Positions 136 through 18,887 of a stretch of 57,335 bases of DNA are shown here, piece by piece. The position numbers and the translations under genes are program-made. Below the pieces are notes generated by a model. The model ran no database searches. It saw only the letters and a list, made by a program, of their open reading frames with translations, and was not told the DNA's origin. The DNA is from Gammaproteobacteria bacterium (GTDB lineage: Bacteria; Pseudomonadota; Gammaproteobacteria; Steroidobacterales; Steroidobacteraceae). Position 1 is the stretch's first letter, and each line of letters begins with the position of its first letter. The stretch covers positions 1 to 57,335 of the forward strand of contig JAGWPE010000241.1 in assembly GCA_028870635.1 (NCBI GenBank), given 5' to 3'.

Positions 136-220
136 TGTGCGCCCGAATTAAAGTCGTTACCTCCGAATTAAAGTCCTTACCAGGGAATTAAAGTCGTTAC
201 CCCGGAATTAGAGTCGCTTC
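136..220. repeat. Tn7-R-like end: four tandem TnsB-type binding sites, 20-bp period
   Basis: GAATTAAAGTCGTTAC at 145-160, 165-180 (1 mismatch), 185-200 (perfect), 205-220 (3 mismatches). Confidence 0.87.
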
Positions 221-437
221 CCGGGGATGCGACATAATTCGACCAGTGCGCAAAGCTGATGGGCTTGCCGCGATCCTGGAACAACGGCGGCAGCTTTGTC
301 CCTAATGAGGGCCGGGCCGCACTGCCGAACAAGACGCCTCTGCCGTCGATCGGGGGGAGGCGACGGCTGCCGCAAATTCCGCAATACTACAAAGCTGAGC
401 CGTATAAAAACTGCGTAACAGCAAGGACTTACCGCTC

Positions 438-1963
438 GTGACAGCCGATCTCGTTGCCGTGGAAGCCCAACTCTGGGCTGCTGCAGACCAGCTTTGGGCG
501 AACACGGGTCTGCGCCCGGCCGACTTTTCCGAGCCCGTCCTGGGGCTGATATTCCTTCGATACGCTGATAAGCGATTTTCCGAGGCGCACGCGGCGCTGC
601 TCGCCAAGGGCTTCGATGGCGATGACCTCGATCGCACCGACTACCAGGCGGAGGGGGTGGTATACCTGCGGAATCGGCCCGTTTCGCCCGCCTGCTGCGG
701 CTTACCGAGGGCGACAACGTCGGCAAGGCGTTGAACGAGGCGATGCTGGCGATTGAGGGGGGCAACACGGACCTCAAGGGGGTGCTTCCGCGCAGCTACA
801 ACCGGCTTCCGAATGCCACGCTCGTTGAACTGATGCGGCTGCTGTCCCCGCTCGATGTGGAAGGGGACGCCTTCGGCAAGGTGTACGAGTACTTTCTCGG
901 CAGCTTCGCACGAGCGGAGGGATCGAAGGGCGGGGTGTTCTATACCCCGACCAGCATCGTGCGGTTGATCGTGGAAGTCCTGCAACCCTTCCACGGCCGC
1001 ATCTTCGATCCGGCGTGCGGCTCCGGGGGCATGTTCGTGCAGTCGGCGGCCTTCGTCGCGCGCCACCACAAGAGCGCGACCCGGGAGCTGACCGTCTTCG
1101 GCACCGAGAAGGACGTCAAGACCGTCAAGCTCGCCCGGATGAATCTCGCCGTGCACGGCCTCTCCGGGGACATCCGCGAATCGAATACGTACTACGAGGA
1201 CCCGCACAAGGCGCTCGGGCGCTTCGATTTCGTGATGGCGAATCCGCCCTTAACGTCTCCGGCGTGGACAAGGACCGGCTGAAGGACGATCGGCGCTTCT
1301 CGCTCGGGTTGCCGAGCACCGACAACGCCAACTATCTCTGGATCCAGCTCTTCCATGCTGCGCTCAACGACACGGGGCGCGCGGGCTTCGTCATGGCCAA
1401 TTCCGCCGGCGATGCGCGCGGGAGCGAGCTCGAGATCCGCAAGAAGCTTATCCAGTCCGGCGCCGTCGATGTGATGGTAAGCGTGGGATCGAATCGTGAC
1501 GCTGCCCTGCACGCTGTGGTTCCTCGACAAGGGCAAGCGGAAGGGGAAGCGGCGGGACAAGGTGCTGTTCCTCGATGCCCGGCCCTACTTCAAGCAGGTC
1601 ACGCGGGCGATTCGGGAGTTCACGCCCGAGCAGATGGAGTTCCTCGCCAACATCGTGCGGCTGTATCGGGGAGAGAAGCCCGAGTTCGATGCTGACTCGA
1701 AGAAGATGCTCAAGGAGCGGTTCGCGAAGCTCGCATATGCGAACGTGGCGGGGCTGTGCAAGGTCGCGACGCTCGACGAAATCGAGGCGCAGGGGTGGAG
1801 CCTCAATCCCGGGCGCTATGTCGGTGTCGGCGAGCGGGCTGGGGACGGGTTCGACTTTGCGGAGAGACTGGAGGAGCTGAATGAAGAACTCGAAACCCTC
1901 TCTGACGAAGCAGTACAACTGCAAGAGAAGATCGCGGATTCTGTCAGGACCGTCCTTCGATGA
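438..1963 (+). pseudogene. hsdM: Type I restriction-modification methyltransferase subunit HsdM, broken by frameshifts
   Basis: Consecutive HsdM segments in changing frames: [69 protein letters not shown]...[73 protein letters not shown]. Frame changes near ~660, ~1250, ~1490. Confidence 0.88.
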
Positions 1964-2030
1964 AGTGGCCGCTTCGGAGAGTTGGAGACCTTGCCGACTT
2001 ATGTCTCGGCAAGATGCTGGATCAAAAGAT
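1960..2030 (+). pseudogene. hsdS: HsdS specificity subunit, N-terminal fragment only
   Basis: ATG overlaps hsdM stop (ATGA); [23 protein letters not shown] resembles the start of a type I S subunit, then similarity stops. Confidence 0.6.
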
Positions 2031-2095
2031 TACAGACACGCATGTCATCAGAGCCCTCTGCTACGAGATGCGACGTACCTCCGCATAAACGCTGG

Positions 2096-2910
2096 CTAAA
2101 TCGTCTCCAATATCCCTGCTTCTGAGTCCATCTCTTCCGACAACGCTGACTGTCCCTGAGAGGCATCATCGCTGTCGCTCTCATCGCCAGACTCGATCGC
2201 CGGAACCCCCGGTAGCCTGAGAATAGTTGCGGACTCGGCGGGATCCAGTTGCTCGACCGACCGCAATTTGCGTTCCATTGCTCGCGTGCGGGTGCCCGTC
2301 TCTTCGATCGTCTTGGTGGCCGTCTGTAGTTGGCGCTGCACCTTACCCAGCCAGGTGCCGAATTTGCCAAATTCCGCTTTCACGCCGCCCAGCACTCGCC
2401 GGACCTCAGCTGCCCGTTGCTCGACTGCCAGCGTTTGGAAGCCCATCCGGAGACTGCTGAGGATTGCGGACACCGTGGTGGGCCCGGCGATGACCACACG
2501 ATGCTTCTGCAGCAGTTCTTCAACGAAGGCGGGCTGCCGCAGGGCCTCTGCGTAGAGTCCCTCGGTCGCAAGGAACATGATGGCGAAATCTGTCGTGGCG
2601 GGCGGATTCACGTATTTATCATGAATATCCCGGGCTGCCGCGCGAAGGGCTCGCAAGAGCGCATCAGCCGCGCTCTGGGTAGCCCCGGGATCACCGGACT
2701 CTGCTGCACTCTGCAGCCTGGCGTAATCCTCGGTCGGGAACTTCGAATCGATCGGCAACCACATGCAGCGGCCGGGGTCATCCTTGGGTCCTGGAAGGCG
2801 GACCGCAAACTCCACTCTCTCGGCCGAGTCCTCCCGGACAGACACGTTCCGTGAGAACTGATCAGGGGTGAGCACTTGGTCGAGTATCGCGCCGAGCTGC
2901 ACCTCAGCCC
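2096..2910 (-). pseudogene. rmuC: RmuC family protein, 5'-truncated
   Basis: AEVQLGAIL...WLPIDSKFPTEDYARL...NPPATTDFAIMFLATEGLYAEAL...VIAGPTTVSAILSSLRMGFQTLAVEQRAAEVRRVLGGVKAEFGKF; N-terminal half absent, joined to a transposase fragment near 2905-2918. Confidence 0.85.
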
Positions 2911-2911
2911 G

Positions 2912-3992
2912 GCAAGCTGCTATGACCGGCTGCTCGACTTCTTCCATAGTCCGGCCGTCGACGTCGATGTCCTCACGCGCCGGTGGGTACAACGGGTGAT
3001 GGAGTCCTTACCCGTGCATCGTGTGGCCGGCCGCCCGGTGCTCCTCGGCGACGGTCTGAAGGTGGCCAAGGCGGGCCGGAAAATGCCGGCGGTGAAGCTC
3101 CTGCACCAACCGGGAGAGAGCAATACCAAGCCCACCTACATCATGGGGCATTCCGTGCAGGTGGTCTCCGCTCTGGTTGCTGCTGCCGACTCTCATTTCG
3201 CCGTCCCGCTCGCCGGACGCATCCACGAGGGGGTGAGGTTCACCAATCGCGATCACAGAACCCTGCCGAGCAAGTGCTGCGATCTGCTCGAGAGCCTGGG
3301 ACTCGATGAGCCCTTCTACTTCGTCGCCGACGCCTATTACGGCTGCAAAACCGTCGCCCAGCGCCTGCGGGGCAGCGGCAGCCATCTGATCTCGCGCGTG
3401 CGCCGCAGCGTTGTCGCCTATATACCGGCCCCTGCACCGACCGGCCGGCGCCAACGAGGCCGGCCGCGCCTTTATGGCCGCAGGATCAAGCTGTGGACGC
3501 TGTTCGATTCTGACCAACACTCCTGGCAAGAGGCCGAGAGTCCCGTCTACGGTGAGCGCGACGTGACCATCCGCTATCTCTACCGCGACCTGATCAGGCG
3601 CCCCGTGCGAACCCTCGTGCGCTTCGTGCTCGTCGATCACCCCACCCGGGGCCGCTCGATCTTCATCACCACAGATCTCGCGCTCCCGCCGATCGAGGTC
3701 ATCCGCCTCTACGGCCTGCGTTTCAAGATCGAGCTGTCCTTCAAACAGGCCCTGAGCGTGCTCGGGACTTACGCCTATCACTTCTGGCTGCGCGCCATGC
3801 CGAAGATCTCCCGCGGCTCAGGCACCCAGCACCTGCACCGCGCCTCAGAGCGCTACCGCCAAGCGGTACGCCGCAAGCTTTCCGCCTATCAACGCCACAT
3901 CCAGGTCGGCGCGATCGCCCAGGCATCTTTGCAGGCACTCGCCATCCAACACCCGCGCCTCGTCTGGTCCTCCTTCGGCTCCTGGCTGCGCG
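2912..3992 (+). pseudogene. DDE-type IS transposase, truncated at both ends
   Basis: CYDRLLDFFHSP...RPVLLGDGLKVAKAGRKMPAVKLLHQPGESNTKPTYIMGHS...YGLRFKIELSFKQALSVLGTYAYHFWLRAM...SSFGSWLRG; no start region, C-terminus runs into hipA sequence. Confidence 0.75.
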
Positions 3993-3998
3993 GCCGGC

Positions 3999-4312
3999 CG
4001 GCTGCACCGCGAATCGCAGTACGTCTTCAACTACGAGGCACGGATCGGGTCAGCGAAGTTTCGTTGACGATGCCCATCCGCGCGCAAAGCTACGCAAGTC
4101 ATCCGCTCATGCCGGTGTTCGTAATGAACCTGCCGGAAGGCTACCTCTTCAACATGATCGCGCGGCGACTGGCCAAGCATGAGCAGGTCGACGATATGCG
4201 ACTGCTGGCAATCACCGGACGACACCAGATCGGACGCCTGCAGTTCGTGGAACCCGGCGAACAGCAGGAGACGCCCCCTCGCATCGGTCTGTCGCAGCTG
4301 CTTACCCGGCGA
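3999..4312 (+). pseudogene. hipA: HipA-like toxin N-terminal fragment with frameshift
   Basis: LHRESQYVFNYEA (one frame), then TDRVSEVSLTMPIRAQSYASHPLMPVFVMNLPEGYLFNMIARRLAKHEQVDDMRLLAITGRHQIGRLQF (another frame). Confidence 0.68.
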
Positions 4313-4320
4313 GGTCACGT

Positions 4321-5739
4321 TTACTCTGTAACGGCAACTGTATGCTGGGCTGACTTGTGTAGATAGAACGGAACCCCCGCCAGGATCACCAGCATGCCAA
4401 GTGAGGAGCGCACCGGCTGCTCGATCCAGAGATTCGTCGTGAGCGCCACAGTGGCGGCGATGAACAAGAGCGGGGTCCATGGATAGCCCCATGCAAGGTA
4501 CGGACGCAGCAGGTCGGGCTCGGTCAGGCGCAAGCGGATGACCGTGAGAGCTCCGAGAGCCGCAAACATCCACATCACAAATACATAGAAGGAAAGGAGC
4601 TGCTCGAACGTGCCGGTGAGCGCGATGAGTGCCCCCAAGGTTCCCTGGAAGGTCAGGGCTCCTATCGGACTGCGGCGACGGGGCTGAACGCTGCCCACCC
4701 ACTCGAAGAAAAGCCCGGCGCGCGCCATGGCGTAGGGCACGCGGGCGTCTTCCATGACTACCCCGTGAAGCGAGGACAGAGCCGATATTCCCATGGCGAT
4801 GGTGAGCCAGATGGCGCCCCTCGGACCAATGAGGGACTTGACGACATCGGAAGCCACGTCGCCCGACCGTGCCACTTGCCCGAAGGTCAGCACATGGAAA
4901 TAGATGATATTGACCAGTACGTAAAGGACGCCCACGATGAGCATCCCGAAAAAGAGAGCACGAGGAATGTTCTTCGCGGGTTGTCGTATTTCGGCGCCGA
5001 GGTTTCCCAGATATTGAAAGCCATTGTAGGCCCACATCACCGGCACAATCGCGGACAGCGTCGCTGCGAATGCCCCGCCGCGTGGTGAGCTCAGCTCGTA
5101 GCTCACTGCGCCGCCCGTCGGCCTGGCCAACAGGAAGCCGGTCAGAATGATGATTACGATTGCCGCAACCTTGAGCGAACTCAGTACGAGTTGAATGCTG
5201 CCGCCAACATTGACGCTGAGACAGTTCAGCGCGGTCAGACTCAAAATGACCGCTGCGGCCAGCGGCTGGGCCGCGGTGAGCGTGAAGACATGGTGGCCGG
5301 CATGAAGTGTGAGCCAGGGGGCATTGAGTCCGGGAGAAAGGAAGCCGGCGAACTTCATGAAGCCGGCCGCCAAAGTCGCGAACGCGACCGGACCCATCAG
5401 CAGCGAATCCGCCCAGCCGAACAGGAATCCCCAGATCGGACCCAGGCCGCGGGTGAGATACGCAAACAGACCGCCCGTGTGGGGAAGCGCCGCGCCGAGC
5501 TCGGCGAAGCACAGCATTCCGCTGAGCGCAATGACGCTGCCAACCAGCCACGCGACGAGGACGAGGCCGGGAGAACCGGCCGCACGAGCCATGGGCGCGG
5601 CGACCAGAAAGACCCCTGTGCCGATGATCGTGCTGACCACTACGGCAGTGGTCTGCCAAGGCCCGAGGCCACGGACGAGGTCCGCGCTTTCCAAAGAGCG
5701 CGCGCCGCATTCGGGTACCGGTGCTTCCGTAAGATTCAT
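4321..5739 (-). CDS. APC superfamily amino acid permease
   Basis: 472 aa, ~12 hydrophobic segments; VVSTIIGTGVFLVAAPMARAAGSPGLVLVAWLVGSVIALSGMLCFAELGAALPHTGG. Confidence 0.9.
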   Translation of the reverse strand: MNLTEAPVPECGARSLESADLVRGLGPWQTTAVVVSTIIGTGVFLVAAPMARAAGSPGLVLVAWLVGSVIALSGMLCFAELGAALPHTGGLFAYLTRGLGPIWGFLFGWADSLLMGPVAFATLAAGFMKFAGFLSPGLNAPWLTLHAGHHVFTLTAAQPLAAAVILSLTALNCLSVNVGGSIQLVLSSLKVAAIVIIILTGFLLARPTGGAVSYELSSPRGGAFAATLSAIVPVMWAYNGFQYLGNLGAEIRQPAKNIPRALFFGMLIVGVLYVLVNIIYFHVLTFGQVARSGDVASDVVKSLIGPRGAIWLTIAMGISALSSLHGVVMEDARVPYAMARAGLFFEWVGSVQPRRRSPIGALTFQGTLGALIALTGTFEQLLSFYVFVMWMFAALGALTVIRLRLTEPDLLRPYLAWGYPWTPLLFIAATVALTTNLWIEQPVRSSLGMLVILAGVPFYLHKSAQHTVAVTE

Positions 5740-6038
5740 GGCGTGCCTTGCTCAGAGGATCGCATCGGTATACCTCCAGCCGTGAACAGTCCTTGTGGCA
5801 ATCGCGTTCCAGGCCGACCGCTTGGCCGGCATGTATTTCCGCTGGATGCGGAACGGTAACGGGCGTCTTACTTTGGTGTTCTCGTCAATCCGCGGGCCCA
5901 TGCGATCGAATGCTGCATTTTGCCTCCTGGCCGAGCAACTATAAACCTATTGGCTCGCCGCCATCCGCAGACGGACGTGTTCGTGGCGGTGCGGTTCTCA
6001 TTCTTCCGCGTGCAACTGGCCTGCTTCCTGACGCTCGA

Positions 6039-9277
<3,239 letters not shown>

Positions 9278-9281
<4 letters not shown>

Positions 9282-10663
9282 TGACGTGCCCGCATGAAGT
9301 CGGCGAGCCTCGCGGCGAACTCCGTCGGCACTTCGCCCGCATGCAGCTGCGCGAAGTGCAGCGCCTTGAATTTGTCGGGCACCAGCGCGCGCGCCGGATC
9401 GGTGTTGTCAATGGTGACCGGCAGGATGAACACCGCCCCATCGGCCATGTTGCGCGAGCGGTCGATCGCGTAGCTCCACTCGCGGCGGAAGTAGGCTTCG
9501 AGGCGCCGTTCGGTGGTCGCCGAGATCACCGGGATGAAATACGAGCAGCGGGCGACGTTGCGTTGGATCTTGCGATCGTAGTCATCGCCTCCCTCCAGCC
9601 GGTCGACGTCGAACCAAGTGGTAATCCCCGCCGCCTCGAGCCCGGCTTTGATGCGCTGCACGGCCGGAAGGTCCTCGCGGGCGTAGCTGAGGAACACCGC
9701 GCGGTCCGGCATCTCGCGCGCGGGCGGGGCGAAGCGCGCAGGGGCGGCCGGCGCTGCCGGCTTGGCGGACACTCGCCGTGCCGTCCAGCGCGCATGCAGC
9801 TCGTTGACGAAGCGCTCGGCGCCCATGTAGATGCGCGTGCGTACGCTCACCTGCTGCAGAAACGCGACCAGCCGCTCGTCCTCGGTCACATGATCGTCGG
9901 CGAGCACTTCACCGACGTCGCGCGGGTCCGACAGACGCTGGCGCTTGGCCATGCGCAGGAACAGCCGGGCGAGCCAGTTGGTGAAGTTGCTGCCGATGAA
10001 CAGCAGGTGATTGTGCTCGAGCTCGTGGAACAGTTTTTCGGGCGCGAGGTGCTCAGTTTGCAGCGCGCAGATGAACTCGAGCAGGTCTTCGTCCGAGATC
10101 ACGTAAGTGGGCGAAGCCGACAGCCGGCCGAACAGGTGATAGACCACCGGGCGGTTCAGGCCATCGCGCTCGCTCGGCAGGTCGACGACCCGGTTGGGCG
10201 CGTAAGCGATCACCTCGGTCGACGGTGCGCCGCCGAAGCGCTCGAGATTGATCGCGCTCTCCAGCAGCGAGTCGAAGGTCGTCGATACGAACAGGTCGAA
10301 GTCGCTGATCGCCGCGAGCCGGCGCAACGCCGGCGAGGGCTCGAACGGCGCATCCTTGAGAATGCCCCGAAGGCGAACGTAGGCCTCCTCGCGACGGCCG
10401 CGTGCCGCGAGGAACCAGCAGACCACGTCGTTCAGCGAGTACGGCTGCGGGAGCGATGCCGGATCGACTCCCAGGCGGCCGGCGAGCTTCTCAGCGAGCC
10501 AGTCGTAGAGCAGTCTCGGTCCGCGATCGGTCTCGACCTGCAGGAGCTCCGCACCGACGATCGGGATGACGCGCCGTTCTTCGATGAAACTCAGCAGGTC
10601 GTCCCAGGCGTCATCGTCCAGTGTGGTCGGCGCAAGGGTCTTCAGAGCGGCGGCGCTCGGCAT
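9278..10663 (-). CDS. SIR2-like domain + C-terminal TIR domain protein (putative NADase effector)
   Basis: N-terminal RRVIPIVGAELL...DFDLFVSTTFDSLLESA...RPVVYHLFGRLS (SIR2_2-like); C-terminal RAVFLSYAREDLPAVQRIKAGLEAAGITTWFDVDRLEGGDDYDRKIQRNVARCSYFIPVISATTE...YFRREWSYA (TIR). ORF extends to 10765; start at 10663 (MPSAAALK) preferred. Overlaps downstream gene by 4 nt. Confidence 0.85.
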
Positions 10664-10934
10664 CGTGGACTCGATTACTCGGCAGAGTCGTTGTTGTGAA
10701 TGGTTCGCGACCGCGCGGGACCGAGTATGCAGTACCTCGAGGCGCATCGGCAAGGCTGCCCCCACATGGCAGATTACGCCGCCGTCGGAGGCGGTCGCTC
10801 AGTCCAGCCGAGGGTGCCTGGTCCATCCGCCGCACGGAAGCCGGACGCCCCTTTCCGGCAGGCACGGATGCTCCGCCCGTGACGGGAGCCGCCAACGCCT
10901 CGAGCTCGTCGACGTCAGCCTCCCGGCCTGACCG

Positions 10935-11330
10935 GCCCATGAGATGAAGGCCATCAGAAATAGGGATTGCTCGAAGGGCTCTTCGATCTGCGCCGCTTTG
11001 GCCGCAAGTGTGGTCAGTTCCTCCGTGAGCTTCTGCGGTATCGAGAGCGGCACGTACGCGGATCCTCCGATGTCCACGGGTCGCTTGCGTACGTCGCCCA
11101 CTGCGGACGGCTCGACCAATCCGCGTGACAACAGAGCGTGGAGGGTGCGCAGCTCCCGCGGGGAGATCTCGAGTTCGGAGATGTTGTCGACCAGGTAGCG
11201 GATCGCCTCCTTGTGGTCATCACCGGCGGCGCTGCGGCAGGCGCTGCACCGTCAGCAGCGGCGCGGCCGCATCGCCCGGCTGGGCACGCGGCGCGGACCA
11301 ATAGGTGATCGTGCCGCTCATGTACGCGCA
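10935..11330 (-). pseudogene. Fic family protein remnant
   Basis: HKEAIRYLVDNISELEISPRELRTLHALLSRGLVEPSAVGDVRKRPVDIGGSAYVPLSIPQKLTEELTTLAAKAAQIEEPFEQSLFLMAFI, then frame lost. Confidence 0.65.
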
Positions 11331-11477
11331 GAGCGGTGCTCCTCCGCTTGAGAGCTGGTTGCATCGATTCCTCGGCTTCGCGCTCCACGTCTCCCGCATC
11401 CGATCGCGGGAGTCTCCACGAAGGTGAAACTAGCGTTGCGACGGATACCTCGCAGAGTCACCCGCAAGTTCGCCCGA

Positions 11478-11612
11478 TCGTTCGCTGCATAATGTCGAAG
11501 CGACCACATTCCTGGCAGGGGGCGCGACTCCACACCGGGGACGGATGATCGGTGGGAACTGAGGTAACGATTCGCCGAGCAATTCGCTCGCTCAGGAAAC
11601 GCCCTTCATTCT
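11478..11612. repeat. Degraded second copy of the Tn7-L-like end
   Basis: GTTCGCTGCATAATGTCGAAGCGACCACATT...GGTGGGAACTGAGGTAACGATT parallels GTTCGCTACATAATAGCGAAACGACTATATT...GGCGGAAACTCGGGTAGCGACT at the true end; site-like motifs at 11497 and 11564 (67 bp apart). Confidence 0.6.
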
Positions 11613-11616
11613 TAAT

Positions 11617-11735
11617 GGTTGCGGACTCGGCGGGATCCAGTTGCTCGACCGACCGCAATTTGCGCTCCATTGCTCGCGTGCGGGTGTCCGTCTACTCGAT
11701 CGCCTTGGTGACCGTCTGTAGTGGCGACTCCGCCA
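11617..11735 (-). repeat. Direct repeat of rmuC 3' region (second copy of ~2226-2340)
   Basis: TTGCGGACTCGGCGGGATCCAGTTGCTCGACCGACCGCAATTTGCG[C/T]TCCATTGCTCGCGTGCGGGTG... shared with only a few mismatches over ~110 bp, same orientation. Confidence 0.9.
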
Positions 11736-11887
11736 ACCCGTTGCTCACGGTACATTCTATACGGTGGGCTCTCCAGGCAGAAATACGGGAAAATTCAGTC
11801 AGGCTTCAGATTGGACTCGTAACATCCGCGGCGGTTGCCGCGGAGATTTCTCGAGGCGGCATTTTGACTCCAAGAGGTATGACGATC

Positions 11888-12433
11888 ATGACGAGAATTG
11901 CGAAAGCCGCGTGCGCAGCGCTCTTCGGAGCCTCGCTGGCGCTCGGAGCCCTGGCCCATGCGGCGCCCGAGGCGCACAAGAAGAACTGGGCGCCGCCCAC
12001 CGGCAAGATCTATGCCCAGAAGCTCGCCGACGACATCATGGCCCACCACCCGGAGCTGATCAGCGTGACGTTCCACGGCGTCCCCCCGGGCATGCACGAT
12101 GCCTATACGATGTTCGCCGGGTCCTTCCCCGACCGGATCGGCAACGCGGACGATCCCGATGACATCACCATCAGCAAGCTGGGTATCACGATCGTGGACC
12201 CCCGCTGGCACCGGACCAACGACACCGTGCGCAAGTTCGTCATGATGCTGCCATTGCGGGATGCCGCTGGCGCGAACCTCGGTGAGCTGGTGCTTTCCTA
12301 CAAAAACCCGCCCCACAGCGAGAAAACCAACAGCCGCTATGAGCGGCGCTTCTTCCTCGCGTCGGTGGCGCTGCGCGACTCGCTCGAGAAGAAGATCCCG
12401 AGCTACGCGGCACTGTTTGCGCCGGCCCGCTAG
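11888..12433 (+). CDS. Hypothetical exported protein
   Basis: Signal-peptide-like MTRIAKAACAALFGASLALGALAHA, then 150+ aa of unknown family. Confidence 0.7.
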   Translation: MTRIAKAACAALFGASLALGALAHAAPEAHKKNWAPPTGKIYAQKLADDIMAHHPELISVTFHGVPPGMHDAYTMFAGSFPDRIGNADDPDDITISKLGITIVDPRWHRTNDTVRKFVMMLPLRDAAGANLGELVLSYKNPPHSEKTNSRYERRFFLASVALRDSLEKKIPSYAALFAPAR

Positions 12434-12530
12434 ACTCATGACTGAGCGGAGCTGTGGCCCAAGCCGCAACGCAGGGCCGCAGCTCCGCATGGCAGCGACG
12501 GGCTCAGTCGGACCGTTCGCTACATAATAG

Positions 12531-12687
12531 CGAAACGACTATATTTGCGGTGAGGATGACGCCTCCGCCGGGAATGGGCGGTCGGCGGAAACTCGGGTAG
12601 CGACTTTGGAATGGCCGGCCGCCCGGAACAGCGAAATCTCACGAGCTATTTGTGCCTCGAGGAAACGACTCTAAATTCATGCCCACA
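12531..12687. repeat. Tn7-L-like end: three TnsB-type sites spaced 65 bp
   Basis: GAAACGACTATATTTG at 12532, GTAGCGACTTTGGAAT at 12597, GAAACGACTCTAAATT at 12662; terminus ...GCCCACA. Confidence 0.83.
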
Positions 12688-12692
12688 ATTGC
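12688..12692. repeat. 5-bp target-site duplication ATTGC, distal copy
   Basis: Identical to 131-135. Confidence 0.88.
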
Positions 12693-12718
12693 TGTGCGCC
12701 CGAATCAAAGTCGTTTCC
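12693..12718. mobile_element. Solo R-type end of an earlier Tn7-like element
   Basis: TGTGCGCCCGAATCAAAGTCGTTTCC matches 136-161 at 24 of 26 positions and directly abuts the TSD. Confidence 0.8.
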
Positions 12719-12730
12719 CGAGAATTCGGC

Positions 12731-13921
12731 ATGAGCCGCCCAAAAGGCAGTAGTGCTTCGCGGCGGGCTCTGCAACGAGGACCGTCAAGAGTACTTTCGG
12801 CAGGCCACCGCATCGTCCACAGCCTATCCTTGGCGCTCCCACAAGCGCCGGGCGCAGCGGGACCGCCGTGGCCGGCAGACTCTCCCGACTCGAGCCCGGC
12901 CCTGAGCTGGAGGGTCGGTCTTTGTATATATGCCGTGATCGTAGCGGGGCTGTGGCTGGCGGCGCATGCGTTCGGCATTCCGAGTGATCTGCGCGGGCAT
13001 TTCGGCGGTCCCTTCCTCGCCGTCGCGCTCATGTTCGGGGTGTTGTGGGCATTCGGCTGGGGAGCGGGTGAGCCGCTGACCCGTTGGATTTCGCCCGAGC
13101 CGCCGCTCGGCAGCGCTAGCCGCGCGGTACGCCCGCTCACCACAGTTTCGATCGCACGGGTGCTGGCGCCCGGCGCGTTCGCTGCGGGCATATACCTGCT
13201 GATCGCCGTGCCGCTCCATGAGCTGTCAGCGTGGTCCCTTCTGCTGTATTTCGGCTTTCCTTCGCTCCTTGCCGGCGCGCTCGAATACGTCCCGCCGGGA
13301 CCGAAGCTCGGCTGGCAGGACGTGATGGTGCTTGGCGCTCTGGGCTGCGCAGTCGAGTACGGATGGCTCGAGCCGGGACTTCGTCATCCCGGGCTGGGCA
13401 ATATTCCGAAGTTCCTGCTGGCCGATGTGGCGCTTTATCTCTACATCGTGCAGCGGCGCTTGCCGGGAATGGGCTTCGACCTGCGGCTGCGCCTGCGCGA
13501 TCTGCGTATCGGCGCACGGGAGTGGGCGCTCTTCGCGCCCATCGGTATCGCGCTGGGCCTCTTGCTCGGTTTCTTGCGCTTTCACGCCCGCCTCCCGGCG
13601 GCCGGTACCTTCGCCGGCACGGTCCTGGTGACGTTCATCTTCGTTGCGCTGCCGGAGGAGCTGTTCTTCCGCTGCCTGCTGCAGAACCTGTTGGAGACAC
13701 GCCTGCCGCGCCGGCTGGCACTGGCGCTCGCGGCCGCCATCTTTGGATTGTCTCACTACATCCATGGGGCAGTATTCAACTGGCGATACGTGATCCTCGC
13801 CGCGATCGCAGGCTGGTTCTACGGCCGCGCCTGGCGGAGTGAAAGACGCGTCGGCGCCTCGGCCGTCAGCCACACTATGGTCGATACCGTATGGGTCACA
13901 TGGTTTCTCGCCCAAGGGTGA
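12731..13921 (+). CDS. CPBP family intramembrane metalloprotease
   Basis: Multi-TM; PEELFFRCLLQNLLETR (EExxxR), FGLSHYIHG, SHTMVDT. Start codon uncertain. Confidence 0.8.
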   Translation: MSRPKGSSASRRALQRGPSRVLSAGHRIVHSLSLALPQAPGAAGPPWPADSPDSSPALSWRVGLCIYAVIVAGLWLAAHAFGIPSDLRGHFGGPFLAVALMFGVLWAFGWGAGEPLTRWISPEPPLGSASRAVRPLTTVSIARVLAPGAFAAGIYLLIAVPLHELSAWSLLLYFGFPSLLAGALEYVPPGPKLGWQDVMVLGALGCAVEYGWLEPGLRHPGLGNIPKFLLADVALYLYIVQRRLPGMGFDLRLRLRDLRIGAREWALFAPIGIALGLLLGFLRFHARLPAAGTFAGTVLVTFIFVALPEELFFRCLLQNLLETRLPRRLALALAAAIFGLSHYIHGAVFNWRYVILAAIAGWFYGRAWRSERRVGASAVSHTMVDTVWVTWFLAQG

Positions 13922-13933
13922 TTGCGGTGTCAC

Positions 13934-14593
13934 ATGAGCGTATTCGCGAGCGCTGAGCTCGACAGAGCCGATCGCCGGGCACAGTGGCGCCAGGTGCTGT
14001 TGGTGTATGCCTCGCTCGAAGGCGCTCTATGGACCGCGGGTGCGGTGCAAAGCCTCTTCATAGCTTTGACCGTGGCGCTGGCCGTCGCCTGGAGCTTCTC
14101 CGAGAGATACGCATGGCGGGATCTGGGGCTCGATCCAGCCTCCATCCGCCGCGGCTGGTGGATCGCTCCGGTCGGGGCTGCGGTCGCCGCACTCATCCTG
14201 CTTGCCGCCTGGCTATCGCACACGTTGCGGTGGCCGGCGAGCGGTATGGTGATTTGCCTGAACATCGCGCTCAGCCTGACCTGGGCCTTCGCGCAGCAGT
14301 TTCTGGCTCAGTCCTTCTTCTTCCTGCACTTCGAGTACCTGTTGCGCAGCGGACGGCGGGCGGTGATTGCGACCGCCCTGTTGTTCTCGAGCGCGCACAT
14401 ACCCAATCCGGTACTCATGCCGGTGACACTCGCCGGTGGATTGATCCTCAGCGAGCTATTCCGCCGCCATCGAACGCTCTATCTGCTTGCGGTTGCCCAT
14501 GCGCTCGTCGCGCTCGCCCTCGCCATCAGCGTGCCGGAGATCGTGCTGCACGACATGCGCGTCGGCATTGGCTACATCAGCTACCGACCTTGA
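13934..14593 (+). CDS. CPBP-like membrane protein with degenerate active site
   Basis: Multi-TM; WAFAQQFLAQSFFFLHFEYLLR at the EExxxR position, FSSAHIPNP at the His motif. Confidence 0.7.
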   Translation: MSVFASAELDRADRRAQWRQVLLVYASLEGALWTAGAVQSLFIALTVALAVAWSFSERYAWRDLGLDPASIRRGWWIAPVGAAVAALILLAAWLSHTLRWPASGMVICLNIALSLTWAFAQQFLAQSFFFLHFEYLLRSGRRAVIATALLFSSAHIPNPVLMPVTLAGGLILSELFRRHRTLYLLAVAHALVALALAISVPEIVLHDMRVGIGYISYRP

Positions 14594-14932
14594 TTGCCGC
14601 CGGTGGAAGTACTCGGGATCGTCACGGTGGAAAAAGACAGCCTCATCGTGCGTGTTGCCGATGAGGAGCGGCACGGCCGCCGCGAGCGCCGGCGCAGTCG
14701 CCGATCGAAAGACTGTGCCACGCTGATCGATGCTCCGGATGGTATCGCTACCAATGTAGCATGGACATTGCCCCTGCCGCATTCCGGAGTCTTCATGCGT
14801 GTCGTGATCAGCTTCGCCCGATCCAGGATCCGGCGCCGGGAGTTCCAGGCAGAACTGCCGTCACGGAGAACGGCGTAGAATCTGCAGGTGGCCCGCTTGC
14901 ACCCACGCGTCGCGGGGAGGCGAGTGTCCCCG

Positions 14933-15583
14933 ATGAAACAGACATCCTCCATACGGCACTGCCTGGCGGCGGCGCTCATCGCGGTACTGCTCCTGCCCGG
15001 GTCGCTGCGTACGGCTTCAGCCGCCGGCGCCACGGCTTCCGGATCGGCCCCCGCCGACAAGGCAGCCGCGAAGAGCTCCCTCACGTCGATCGTCCTTGTC
15101 GCTCAGAGCGTCGTATCCGATCCCAACTTCGGCGGCTCGATCGTGGTCGTCATGAACAACCTCGGCCCGGGCCCGGTAGGCATCATCGTAAACAGGCCGA
15201 TGCCGCTCACCGTCGCGCGCTTCTTTCCGAAGCTGAAGCGCGTCGCGCAAGTGCACGACAAGGTGTACTTCGGCGGTCCCGTGGAATTCGGCACCGTGTG
15301 GTTTCTGTTTCGCGCGAAAACGGCGCCTGCGAGTGCAACCCGGGTGTGCGACGGCGTCTACGTGAGCTCGGACGACAAACTCCTGCTCCATCTGCTCGGC
15401 CGCCGCAAGCCCATGGAGGGTCTGCGGATCTTCGTCGGCCACGCGGGCTGGGCGCCGGGGCAGCTGCAGGCCGAGATAGAAGGGGGCGCCTGGCTTCCAC
15501 GCCGCGCCGCCGCCGACGCGATCTTCAACGCGAAGCCGCAGCTCCCATGGCCGTCGCGGCGAGGTCCGAAGGCGGGGGCCTGA
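14933..15583 (+). CDS. YqgE/AlgH (UPF0301) family protein with N-terminal signal-like extension
   Basis: LVAQSVVSDPNFGGSIVVVMNNLGPGPVGIIVNRPMPLTV...VYFGGPVEFGTVWFL...IFVGHAGWAPGQLQAEI. Confidence 0.87.
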   Translation: MKQTSSIRHCLAAALIAVLLLPGSLRTASAAGATASGSAPADKAAAKSSLTSIVLVAQSVVSDPNFGGSIVVVMNNLGPGPVGIIVNRPMPLTVARFFPKLKRVAQVHDKVYFGGPVEFGTVWFLFRAKTAPASATRVCDGVYVSSDDKLLLHLLGRRKPMEGLRIFVGHAGWAPGQLQAEIEGGAWLPRRAAADAIFNAKPQLPWPSRRGPKAGA

Positions 15584-15638
15584 CGCTGATGCAAGCCGCC
15601 GTGACGCGAGAAGCGGTTCCGCGACTTGCCGCCGCTCG

Positions 15639-17234
15639 TCAGTGTCCGGCCGCCGTTCCGCCCGAGCTGGCGCGAATGAACTGCGCGATGTTGTCATGCA
15701 GCAGGGCCAGCGCCTGCGGCGCCACGTAGATCATGTGGCCGGTATCGTAGAAGCGGTACTCGATGTTCTTCTGCAGATTCGCGGCCATGGGCAGCTGCTG
15801 CATCTGATACACCGCAGCGTAGTACGGAGTCGCCAGATCGAAGTAGCCGGCGTTCACCATCACCTTGAGGTCCGGGTTGATGGTCATCGCGGCGGCGAGG
15901 TCCGGCAGGACATTGGGCGCCGTATACGCGGGAGTGCTCTGCCCGGGCGGCGTGTGCAGCATGCTCCACTGGCTGTTGATGTCGAGGGAGAGGAACTCAT
16001 AATGATGCTCGCCGCCGAAATGCAGCGTGCTGCGAACGTAACCGTTGAGCGCCGAGGTGTAGGCCGAACCGATCGCGGCGATCTCCGGGTCATACTCGAC
16101 GTACTCGGCCAGCGGATCCAGCGTCGGTCCCGAGAATCGCGCGTCCAGCCGCCCGGTGCTCTCATCGCGGGGCAGCAGCAGCTGCTGCTCGAATTGCGGC
16201 CCGGTGACGCGCAGATCCGCCTTCAAGATGTAGCTCTCCGGCAGGCCGGTGTACCGGGCCATCTGCGCGGCGATGCCTGCCTTCTGCGGCTGCGGCAGCG
16301 TGCTGCCCGCGTCGAGAGCCTGCAGGTAAGGACCCATGGCCCAGGTCTGCACTTCCTCCAGCCATGGGTGCAGTGCCGGCGGCGGCTGCGGCAGCACCTT
16401 GTGGTACCAGGCAACCGCCGCGTAAGTCGGCAGCGCCAGCGCATAAGGCAGATTCACCCCGGGGTTGAGATTCGCCTGGTCCACACTGGTATCGAAGTTG
16501 AGGATGCTCGAGAGCAGCACGATGCCGTTCAGGTCGATGCTGTCTTCCTGCTCCAGCACGTTGGCCACGGCGGCGGAGCGTGTCGTGCCGTAGCTCTCGC
16601 CGATCAGGTACTTCGGTGAGTTCCACCGCCCGTATTTCGACAGGAACTGGCTGATGAACCGCGCGAACGCCTTCGCATCCGGATCGACGCCATAGAACTC
16701 CTTCGGCGTTCCGACCCCGCCGTCATCCTTGCCGAGGATGCGGCTGAACCCGGTGCCCATCGCATCAACGAACACCAGATCACAAACGTCGAGCAGGCTG
16801 TACTGGTTGCTGACGAGCTGATAGGGCGCTGGAGGCGTATGCGTGTGACCTTTGGTGACGACGCGCACCGGTCCGAATGCGCCCATGTGCAGGGGAGAGG
16901 ATGAGCCGCCCGGCCCGCCGTTGTAAAGAAACGCGATGGGCCGCCGCGAGGCATCACCGCCGCTTTTGAAATAGGCCACGTAGAACATTTCGCCGGTCGG
17001 CTTGCCGTCCTTGTTGCGCAGAATAAGCGTGGCCGCGTCCGCGCTGTAACGGATGTGTTGACCGCCGGCCGTCACTTCACCCTGCGTGGTGACGCTATGC
17101 GGCGTCGCCCAGTAGTGCTCGGGATTGCCTGCCTTGGAGGCAGCCGTGTCGGCTGGCGCGGCCGCCGCCAGCGCCGCCAGCGGCATCGCCCCGATCGCGA
17201 GCAACAGAACGAACGGCCTTCGGAAAGCGGACAT
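15639..17234 (-). CDS. S10 family serine carboxypeptidase-like peptidase
   Basis: PIAFLYNGGPGGSSSPLHMGAFGPVRV, LIGESYGTTRSAAVANVL, NAGYFDLATPYYA, DTGHMIY; signal peptide MSAFRRPFVLLLAIGAMPLAALAAAAP. Confidence 0.88.
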   Translation of the reverse strand: MSAFRRPFVLLLAIGAMPLAALAAAAPADTAASKAGNPEHYWATPHSVTTQGEVTAGGQHIRYSADAATLILRNKDGKPTGEMFYVAYFKSGGDASRRPIAFLYNGGPGGSSSPLHMGAFGPVRVVTKGHTHTPPAPYQLVSNQYSLLDVCDLVFVDAMGTGFSRILGKDDGGVGTPKEFYGVDPDAKAFARFISQFLSKYGRWNSPKYLIGESYGTTRSAAVANVLEQEDSIDLNGIVLLSSILNFDTSVDQANLNPGVNLPYALALPTYAAVAWYHKVLPQPPPALHPWLEEVQTWAMGPYLQALDAGSTLPQPQKAGIAAQMARYTGLPESYILKADLRVTGPQFEQQLLLPRDESTGRLDARFSGPTLDPLAEYVEYDPEIAAIGSAYTSALNGYVRSTLHFGGEHHYEFLSLDINSQWSMLHTPPGQSTPAYTAPNVLPDLAAAMTINPDLKVMVNAGYFDLATPYYAAVYQMQQLPMAANLQKNIEYRFYDTGHMIYVAPQALALLHDNIAQFIRASSGGTAAGH

Positions 17235-17361
17235 GCGAACCCCATTGAGATGACGCGACGGCGCGAGGCGAGAGCTCGATCGTAGCATTTGGACGCTCCC
17301 TCCACCGCCCCGGTTTGAGGTCCGCGAGTCGCGAAGCGGCACGTAACCCGCTACTCCATCC

Positions 17362-17559
17362 GTCTTCGAAGGCGGCGCGCCGCTGCTTTTCGGCGCCCTG
17401 TCGGAATGGCTGGGCGGTGGTCAGGCCGGGGTGACGAGGACCTTCCTGATCAGGCTCATCCCGATGCTGGTTGCCAGCCTCCTCGGGGTATGGGCGCGCG
17501 AGACCTACCTGCGCGACGCCGCGACTGCCGCGGCCTCGAGCCGCGCATGCAAGTCGTAG
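17362..17559 (+). pseudogene. C-terminal remnant of an MFS-type transporter
   Basis: [59 protein letters not shown]; open upstream without a plausible start, overlaps rimO 3' end antisense. Confidence 0.45.
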
Positions 17560-18887
17560 GTGTCGCTGGAGGTGACCTCGACATCGGCCCAGTCACCGGG
17601 CCGAAGTCCGTCCGCGGCTGCGATCCGCACCACGCCGTCGATGTCCGGCGCGTCAGCCGCGCTGCGCGCGATCGCCTCACCGTCCGCAACCGAATCCACC
17701 AGCACCCGCATCCTGGCGCCGATACGCCGCGCCAGACGGCCGGCACTGATGGCCGCGGCGCGCTCCATGAAGCGGGCGTACCGCTCTTCCTGAACCTCGG
17801 CCGGTACGTGGCCTTCGAGCGCATTCGCGGTGGCGCCTGCGACCGGCGAATACTTGAAGCACCCCACGCGGTCGAGCTGAGCCTCCTGCAGCCACTGAAG
17901 CAACTCGTCGAACTCGCTCTCCGTCTCGCCGGGGAATCCGACGATGAACGTGCTGCGCAGCGTCAGGTCCGGGCACTGCTCCCGCCAGGCCGCGATGCGC
18001 CGCAGCACATCCTCGGAGTGGGCGGGGCGCCGCATGCGCTTCAGCACCGACGGGCTGCCGTGTTGGAAGGGAATGTCGAGGTACGGCAGGACGCGCCGCT
18101 GCGCCATCAGCGGGATGACTTCGTCGACGTGCGGATAAGGATAGACATAGTGGAGCCGGATCCAGATGCCCAGCGACCCGAGGCCGCGCGCGAGGTCGAT
18201 GAAGCGGGTGCGATATTCCTCATCGCGCCAGCTGGCGGGCTCGTAGCGGATGTCCGCTCCGTAGGCGCTGGTGTCCTGGGAGATGACCAGCAGCTCGCGC
18301 ACGCCCGCGGCGGCCAGCCGCTCCGCCTCGCGCAGCACCTCATCGATGCGCCGGCTCGCCAGTCTGCCGCGCAGCGCCGGGATGATGCAGAAGCTGCACT
18401 TGTTGTTGCAGCCCTCGGAGACCTTGAGGTACGCGTAGTGGCGCGGCGTCAGCCGCACTCCCTGCGGCGGTACGAGATCGAGGAAGGGGTCGTGCCGCGG
18501 CGGCAGATGCTCGTGAACGGCCGACATGACCTCACCGTAGGTCTGCGGCCCGGTGACCTTGAGCACGCGCGGATGCCGCTCGAGGATTCGCTCCGGCCGC
18601 GCGCCGAGACACCCCGTCACGATCACCTTGCCGTTGCGCTCCAGAGCCTCGCCGATGGTCTGCAGCGACTCGTCGATGGCCGCATCGATGAATCCGCACG
18701 TGTTGACGACGACGAGATCCGCCTCCTCATAGGTCGGGGATACCTCGTAGCCCTCAGCCCGCAGCGTCGTCAGAATGCGCTCGGAGTCGACCAGCGCCTT
18801 GGGACAGCCCAGGCTGACGAAGCCGATTCTCGGGATGCGCTCGCGCGGTTTCGCGCGGCGGCGCGCTGTTCGGGATGGGCTGGGCAT
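17505..18887 (-). CDS. rimO: Ribosomal protein S12 methylthiotransferase RimO
   Basis: [29 protein letters not shown]...NTCGFIDAA...[27 protein letters not shown]; 461 codons. Confidence 0.96.

Follow-up and report, generated by a model that had tools for sequence, protein, structure and literature searches.

Stacked Tn7-type ends beside glmS point to repeated insertion of elements without recognisable transposase genes

The DNA analysed here (the window; 57,335 nucleotides, contig C122 of a gammaproteobacterial metagenome-assembled genome (MAG) of 3.55 Mb and 83% completeness) opens within glmS, of which the last 36 codons are present, and raises the question of why a transposon left (L) end (12517-12687) leads through an ATTGC (12688-12692) directly into a second right (R)-type Tn7-like end, from 12693. 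The sequence TGTGCGCCCGAATCAAAGTCGTTTCC (12693-12718) is identical to positions 136-161 at 24 of 26 positions, and the 21-base pattern TGTGCGCCCGAATYAAAGTCG, with up to three mismatches, was found at only two places, the ends at 136 and 12693 (0.00 expected from shuffled sequences). On these two counts the second R-type end next to the distal ATTGC, first noticed in a first-pass annotation, is real. The alignments also rule out a chance match, the DNA past its first site aligning with the subterminal DNA of R ends in relatives.

Anatomy of the glmS island

We distinguish three putative elements, E1 to E3, numbered in their presumed order of arrival. The features are as follows (coordinates, strand, description and basis).

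1-111, plus: 3' end of glmS (...LAKSVTVE; TGA at 109-111), the attachment gene; translation and match to glmS of relatives
131-135, plus: ATTGC target-site duplication, copy 1, 20-24 bp past the glmS stop; sequence
136-221, plus: right end of E3 (R136), TGT tip and four repeats at 145, 165, 185 and 205; sequence repeats with a 20-bp period
438-10765, no single strand: E3 cargo, with a broken HsdM, RmuC, a DDE transposase, an amino acid permease, an nSTAND1 protein and a SIR2-TIR protein; Pfam
11482-11610, minus: inner L-end relic with its outer tip lost, left limit of E3; L-end profile, E 7.6e-14
11614-11726, plus: rmuC fragment at the start of the E2 remnant, adjoining the L-end relic; 93% identical to 2222-2335, self-BLAST
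12517-12687, minus: left end of E2 (L2), three spaced sites at 12661-12677, ~12595-12612 and 12531-12547; L-end profile and spaced sites
12688-12692, plus: ATTGC target-site duplication, copy 2; sequence
12693-12718, plus: R1, the tip of E1 with a single surviving, putatively fused repeat; pattern search and R-end alignment
12719-12782, plus: R1 subterminal DNA, homologous to R ends of the relatives G213, G114 and G337; blastn and alignment
12935-14593, plus: E1 cargo, two CAAX (Rce1-like) protease genes; Pfam and genus search
14603-14807, minus: relic of a chromosomal carboxylesterase gene in two pieces, 14603-14695 and 14699-14807; 90% identity to G213 and 87% to G381
14888-18800, no single strand: resident chromosome with AlgH/DUF179, peptidase S10 and RimO; Pfam and synteny with relatives

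The tip of R136, which opens E3 (136-11610), lies 25 bp past the glmS stop, and over 1.78 kb this end of the element shares 90% identity with G293:C419 (blastn). No tns gene was detected in the E3 cargo by Pfam or by tblastn with Tns proteins. The HsdM gene of this cargo is broken (438-1963), and the related element of G293 (locus L048) carries a long open HsdM-like frame together with an HsdR gene. Two overlapping genes on the minus strand (6039-10765) encode a protein combining SIR2-like and TIR domains and an nSTAND1 NTPase, which form a candidate anti-phage defence pair; PADLOC matches the TIR part only. At the other limit of E3, the relic at 11610-11482 has the same orientation as the L end at 12687 and aligns to the L-end profile with a 33-position internal gap; it was left out when this profile was built from nine sequences.

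Only the left part of E2 is present (11611-12687), beginning with the rmuC fragment, a 114-bp duplicate of 2222-2335. L2 matches the profile with an E-value of ~3e-45, a score partly due to construction, L2 being among the nine profile sequences; independent support comes from its three spaced sites and from blastn matches to L ends of other genomes. We infer that E2 once had an R end of its own. The block formed by E3 and E2 is bracketed by the 5-bp ATTGC duplication (131-135 and 12688-12692). No duplication is visible for E1, the left side of which is deleted.

About 1.9 kb of E1 is preserved (12693-14602). The R1 region is 79% identical to G213 over 12699-12782 (blastn, E 5e-13), and weaker subterminal homology extends to ~12860 in the alignment. 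When about 20 R ends of relatives are aligned, the DNA past the lone R1 site corresponds to what lies after repeat 4 in G213, G114 and G337. The two mismatches between R1 and R136 (CAAAG and TTTCC) are both characteristic of the fourth R repeat in relatives, GAAACAAAGTCGTTTCC, and the same two differences, T to C and A to T, separate this repeat from repeat 1, GAATTAAAGTCGTTACC. Because both mismatches carry the repeat-4 signature, the simplest reading is that the R1 site is a putative fusion of repeats 1 and 4 by recombination, with loss of 60 bp and three repeats. The first-pass view that only the outermost site of E1 remains thus holds for the repeats, three of four being lost, and fails for the rest of the element, with subterminal DNA and ~1.9 kb surviving to 14602. 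Among relatives, we did not find the R1 sequence following ATTGC without a transposon.

Both CAAX genes are homologous to copies in G134 and G337, up to ~14578. The first, CAAX1, is matched in four of 58 genus genomes, its own included (two of the others strongly, one by a short and weak match), a rarity as expected for cargo. E1 meets the chromosome at 14602/14603, where the relic of the carboxylesterase gene begins; this gene precedes AlgH in G213 and G381, and AlgH, RimO and the next genes follow the order seen downstream of glmS in relatives. Since the carboxylesterase gene is reduced to two pieces, one or more deletions would have removed the left part of E1 together with most of this gene, and the L end of E1 was presumably lost in the same deletion(s). 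The L-end profile gave nothing convincing between 12693 and 57335 except R1 itself, and the third ATTGC next to a CACA terminus that had been anticipated further downstream was not found by this search. The best boundary candidate for the L end of E1, at 14605 on the minus strand, ranks 70th in the window and was rejected.

Insertions at glmS across the genus

We read 32 glmS loci of the genus, and 17 of them carry a site (at most 5 mismatches) at +32 to +35 bp from the glmS stop, compared with 0.17% of random 55-bp windows. Junctions between an L and an R end are present in two other genomes: G164 (R256...L3447-ATTTGT-R3454) and G114 (L10350-ATAA-R10355), with 6 and 4 bases between the tips, respectively, and not a clean 5. 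The suggestion that the glmS site is used repeatedly is well supported by this fixed distance and by these junctions. In G257, an R-type end with a single site is present at glmS, and in a locus from another gammaproteobacterium (L120), L-like sites lie beyond the tip of an R end.

G134 carries an element of 3.19 kb with an ATTAA duplication on both sides. The copy in G164 is 99.2% identical to it, yet the two adjoining glmS genes share only 78.5% identity over their last 228 bp. The element is nearly whole in only these two of the 58 genomes.

Several other loci deserve mention. In G134, an L-end tip sequence, TTCATGCCCACA, follows the glmS stop, ahead of the duplication that precedes the R end (L043, 232-256), as though the tip of an earlier L end had stayed in place. 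In G293:C323, the end of glmS leads directly into an L-type end instead of an R end (L047, position 130), which suggests an element in reverse orientation. In G381, glmS is followed by GGACAATAAAGTCATGATTTCGACAAATAGTCTTTCC (L034, 232-290), similar to the DNA after the G134 element (L043 from 3449); this region looks like either the empty site of G134 or a very decayed older end. Finally, 5.7 kb of island cargo is 99.1% identical between G257 (L033, ~2964-8669) and G114 (L045, 1695-7400).

Number and order of insertions

Our best explanation, to which we give a probability of about 0.8, is that the window holds at least three Tn7-type insertions at one glmS point, E1 being a truncated relic, and that the elements were probably moved in trans. 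Repeated insertion at a single glmS point, as originally proposed, is borne out by the anatomy of the island, by the differing subtypes of R1 and R136 and by the same layout in G164 and G114. The proposed order of two elements, ATTGC-[E2]-ATTGC-[E1], was right about the stacking and probably too low in its count: the inner L-end relic at 11482-11610 implies that the stack likely records at least three insertions. Counted against this explanation are the lack of a detectable L end in E1, the start of the contig in glmS, the 83% completeness of the MAG, the uneven spacing of the tips in G164 and G114, and the failure to find a transposase locus with these repeats in the genus genomes searched.

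The following scenario can be proposed. Each insertion would have occurred ~20-24 bp past the glmS stop with the right end facing glmS, presumably by TnsD-type targeting. E1 would have arrived first. At some point its R end would have recombined between repeats 1 and 4, which cost it three of the four repeats, and its left part would have been stripped by a deletion that ran into the carboxylesterase gene next to it. The site would have stayed usable because the glmS recognition sequence survives every insertion, so that E2, and then E3, could enter between glmS and E1, with ATTGC duplicated each time. A later deletion would have taken the E3/E2 junction, of which the L-end relic at 11610 would be the trace; this relic and the abutting rmuC fragment are the remains expected if two stacked elements lose their junction. 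The elements would probably have been moved in trans by a TnsABCD-type system outside the window. This scenario predicts a state before the later insertions in which E1 stood alone at the site, glmS-ATTGC-TGTGCGCCCGAATCAAAG.

A rather unlikely, though serious, alternative is that exactly two insertions took place, E2 being one complete 12.5-kb unit beside the relic E1 and the inner L end being internal cargo or a pre-existing sequence. Both ATTGC copies are indeed perfect, and R136 and L12687 look intact. However, the ATTGC copies are no proof that R136 and L12687 arrived in one event, because every insertion at this point would generate an identical duplication, and a stack of any size at one site should show equal copies. 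Moreover, the match of the inner relic to the L-end profile spans the length of the relic (E 7.6e-14), and the relic has the orientation of L2, has lost its tip and abuts the rmuC duplicate, as would be expected where a junction between stacked elements has decayed.

It is improbable that the stack was built by homologous recombination between the glmS regions of different strains instead of repeated transposition. Replacement of whole glmS segments with Tn7-family elements has been described in Acinetobacter baumannii (PMC8190619), and recombination could spread finished arrays. Nevertheless, ATTGC at both junctions fits transposition better, as does the near identity of the G164/G134 element beside divergent glmS ends.

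It is very improbable that R1 is a duplicated piece of its neighbour's R end, produced by unequal crossing-over or left from a decayed tandem dimer, and not an older insertion. The 24 matching positions and the shared orientation would agree with such a duplication, but R1 and R136 belong to different R-end subtypes past the repeats, each with its own relatives (G213, G114 and G337 for R1; G293 for R136). R1 is not a copy of R136, because the latter belongs to the G293:C419 subtype, and we rejected an origin of R1 by duplication of R136 on account of their differing subterminal DNA. An assembly artefact fusing the glmS islands of two unrelated strains, conceivable for a MAG contig that starts inside glmS, deserves the least credence, as the same type of junction is present in independent MAGs and the flanks agree with synteny.

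Repeated insertion as favoured here bears on target immunity. Tn7 hinders a second insertion near an existing copy, which matters because the TnsD recognition sequence persists after insertion (PMC11406308); stacking at glmS therefore needs an escape from immunity or its absence. The collapse of R1 to one site could have weakened immunity, had it preceded the later insertions. Stacking does not depend on a resident end that has lost sites, since in G164 the newer element adjoins a resident R end with four sites.

Transposase genes and relation to known Tn7-type systems

No tnsA, tnsB, tnsC or tnsD/TniQ gene was present among the ORFs scanned in the window, and the genome from which it comes (83% complete) gave no match to TnsA, TniQ or Mu-transpos_C, the named control genomes being silent too. 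The glmS islands checked contain no Tns-like sequence as detectable by Pfam on a subset of island ORFs and by tblastn with two Tns sets, a search that very divergent Tns proteins could escape. We looked for the repeats of the glmS elements, GAATTAAAGTCGTT, beside tns loci: they are absent near the 16 Mu-transpos_C loci of the genus, found in 13 genomes, and of the loci that we read in the 58 searched genomes of the genus, no tns locus had repeats of the glmS family. Plasmid and phage collections gave no match to the R end, and the exact end patterns were not found in viral contigs.

One candidate for the mobilising partner and one for an autonomous copy found no support. The tnsABCD loci of the genus (e.g., L106), considered as the partner, are located away from glmS and have no such repeats around them, and the L106 end that was observed, TGTGCGTTGACTCAAAAGGC, is unlike those of the glmS family. 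An element of G170, from another genus, considered as the autonomous copy, combines type III restriction-modification-like cargo with an L end and has no recognisable tns genes. The L106 locus itself (its positions 4121-11202; from G114:C83), like L107 and L110, contains a tnsA-B-C-D operon with its tnsD end beside a TSCPD gene, which adjoins an intein-bearing ribonucleotide reductase gene; it resembles a Tn7-like element that uses a different attachment gene.

The block in the window and the G134/G164 element both have matching ends, no transposase gene and signs of past movement. With no recognisable Tns transposase encoded in any of the elements, mobilisation in trans is probable, and movement by a separate system is the best explanation. 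The G164/G134 pair gives direct access to the questions of how such elements are mobilised in trans and of whether Tn7-type target immunity acts between related end types.

Stacked ends are a known kind of arrangement. A passage of one survey, citing Peters et al. 2014, names Tn7-like elements beside or inside existing ones as a possible cause of extra ends (PMC8649781). The window resembles these nested or adjacent elements in its multiple ends at one attachment site, and differs in its base-level resolution, its recurrence in the genus and its lack of recognisable transposase genes. That survey demands a TnsB homologue and would therefore miss these elements (PMC8649781). Our data suggest that cargo-only Tn7-type elements have been missed because surveys begin at the transposase gene. 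In the open-licence papers we found no description of such transposase-less elements, of their recurrence in a genus or of resolved steps of their decay.

Non-autonomous transposons moved in trans are familiar from MITE-like logic and from mini-Tn7. The elements described here share with them cargo between functional-looking ends and no transposase gene, but are natural, kilobase-sized elements with Tn7-type ends at glmS. We see an even chance that the genus, known here from MAGs, harbours natural transposase-less Tn7-type islands that are moved in trans, stack repeatedly at one glmS site despite resident ends and decay into composites. If this is true, surveys starting from TnsB are blind to such islands. 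The window provides a base-resolution view of how repeated insertion and local deletion build up a genomic island at an attachment site.

The closest known systems are Tn7 and Tn6171, with TGT...ACA tips, close R sites, spread L sites and a 5-bp duplication, and with insertion ~25 bp past the glmS stop, the R end nearest glmS, as in the Tn7 family (PMC11406308; PMC8190619). The ends in the window likewise have TGT/ACA tips, close R sites and spread L sites, the transposase sites being predicted from the repeats. Unlike Tn7 and Tn6171, the elements in the window lack recognisable tns genes, their R repeats have a 20-bp period with the core AAAGTCGTT, and the islands stack and decay in place.
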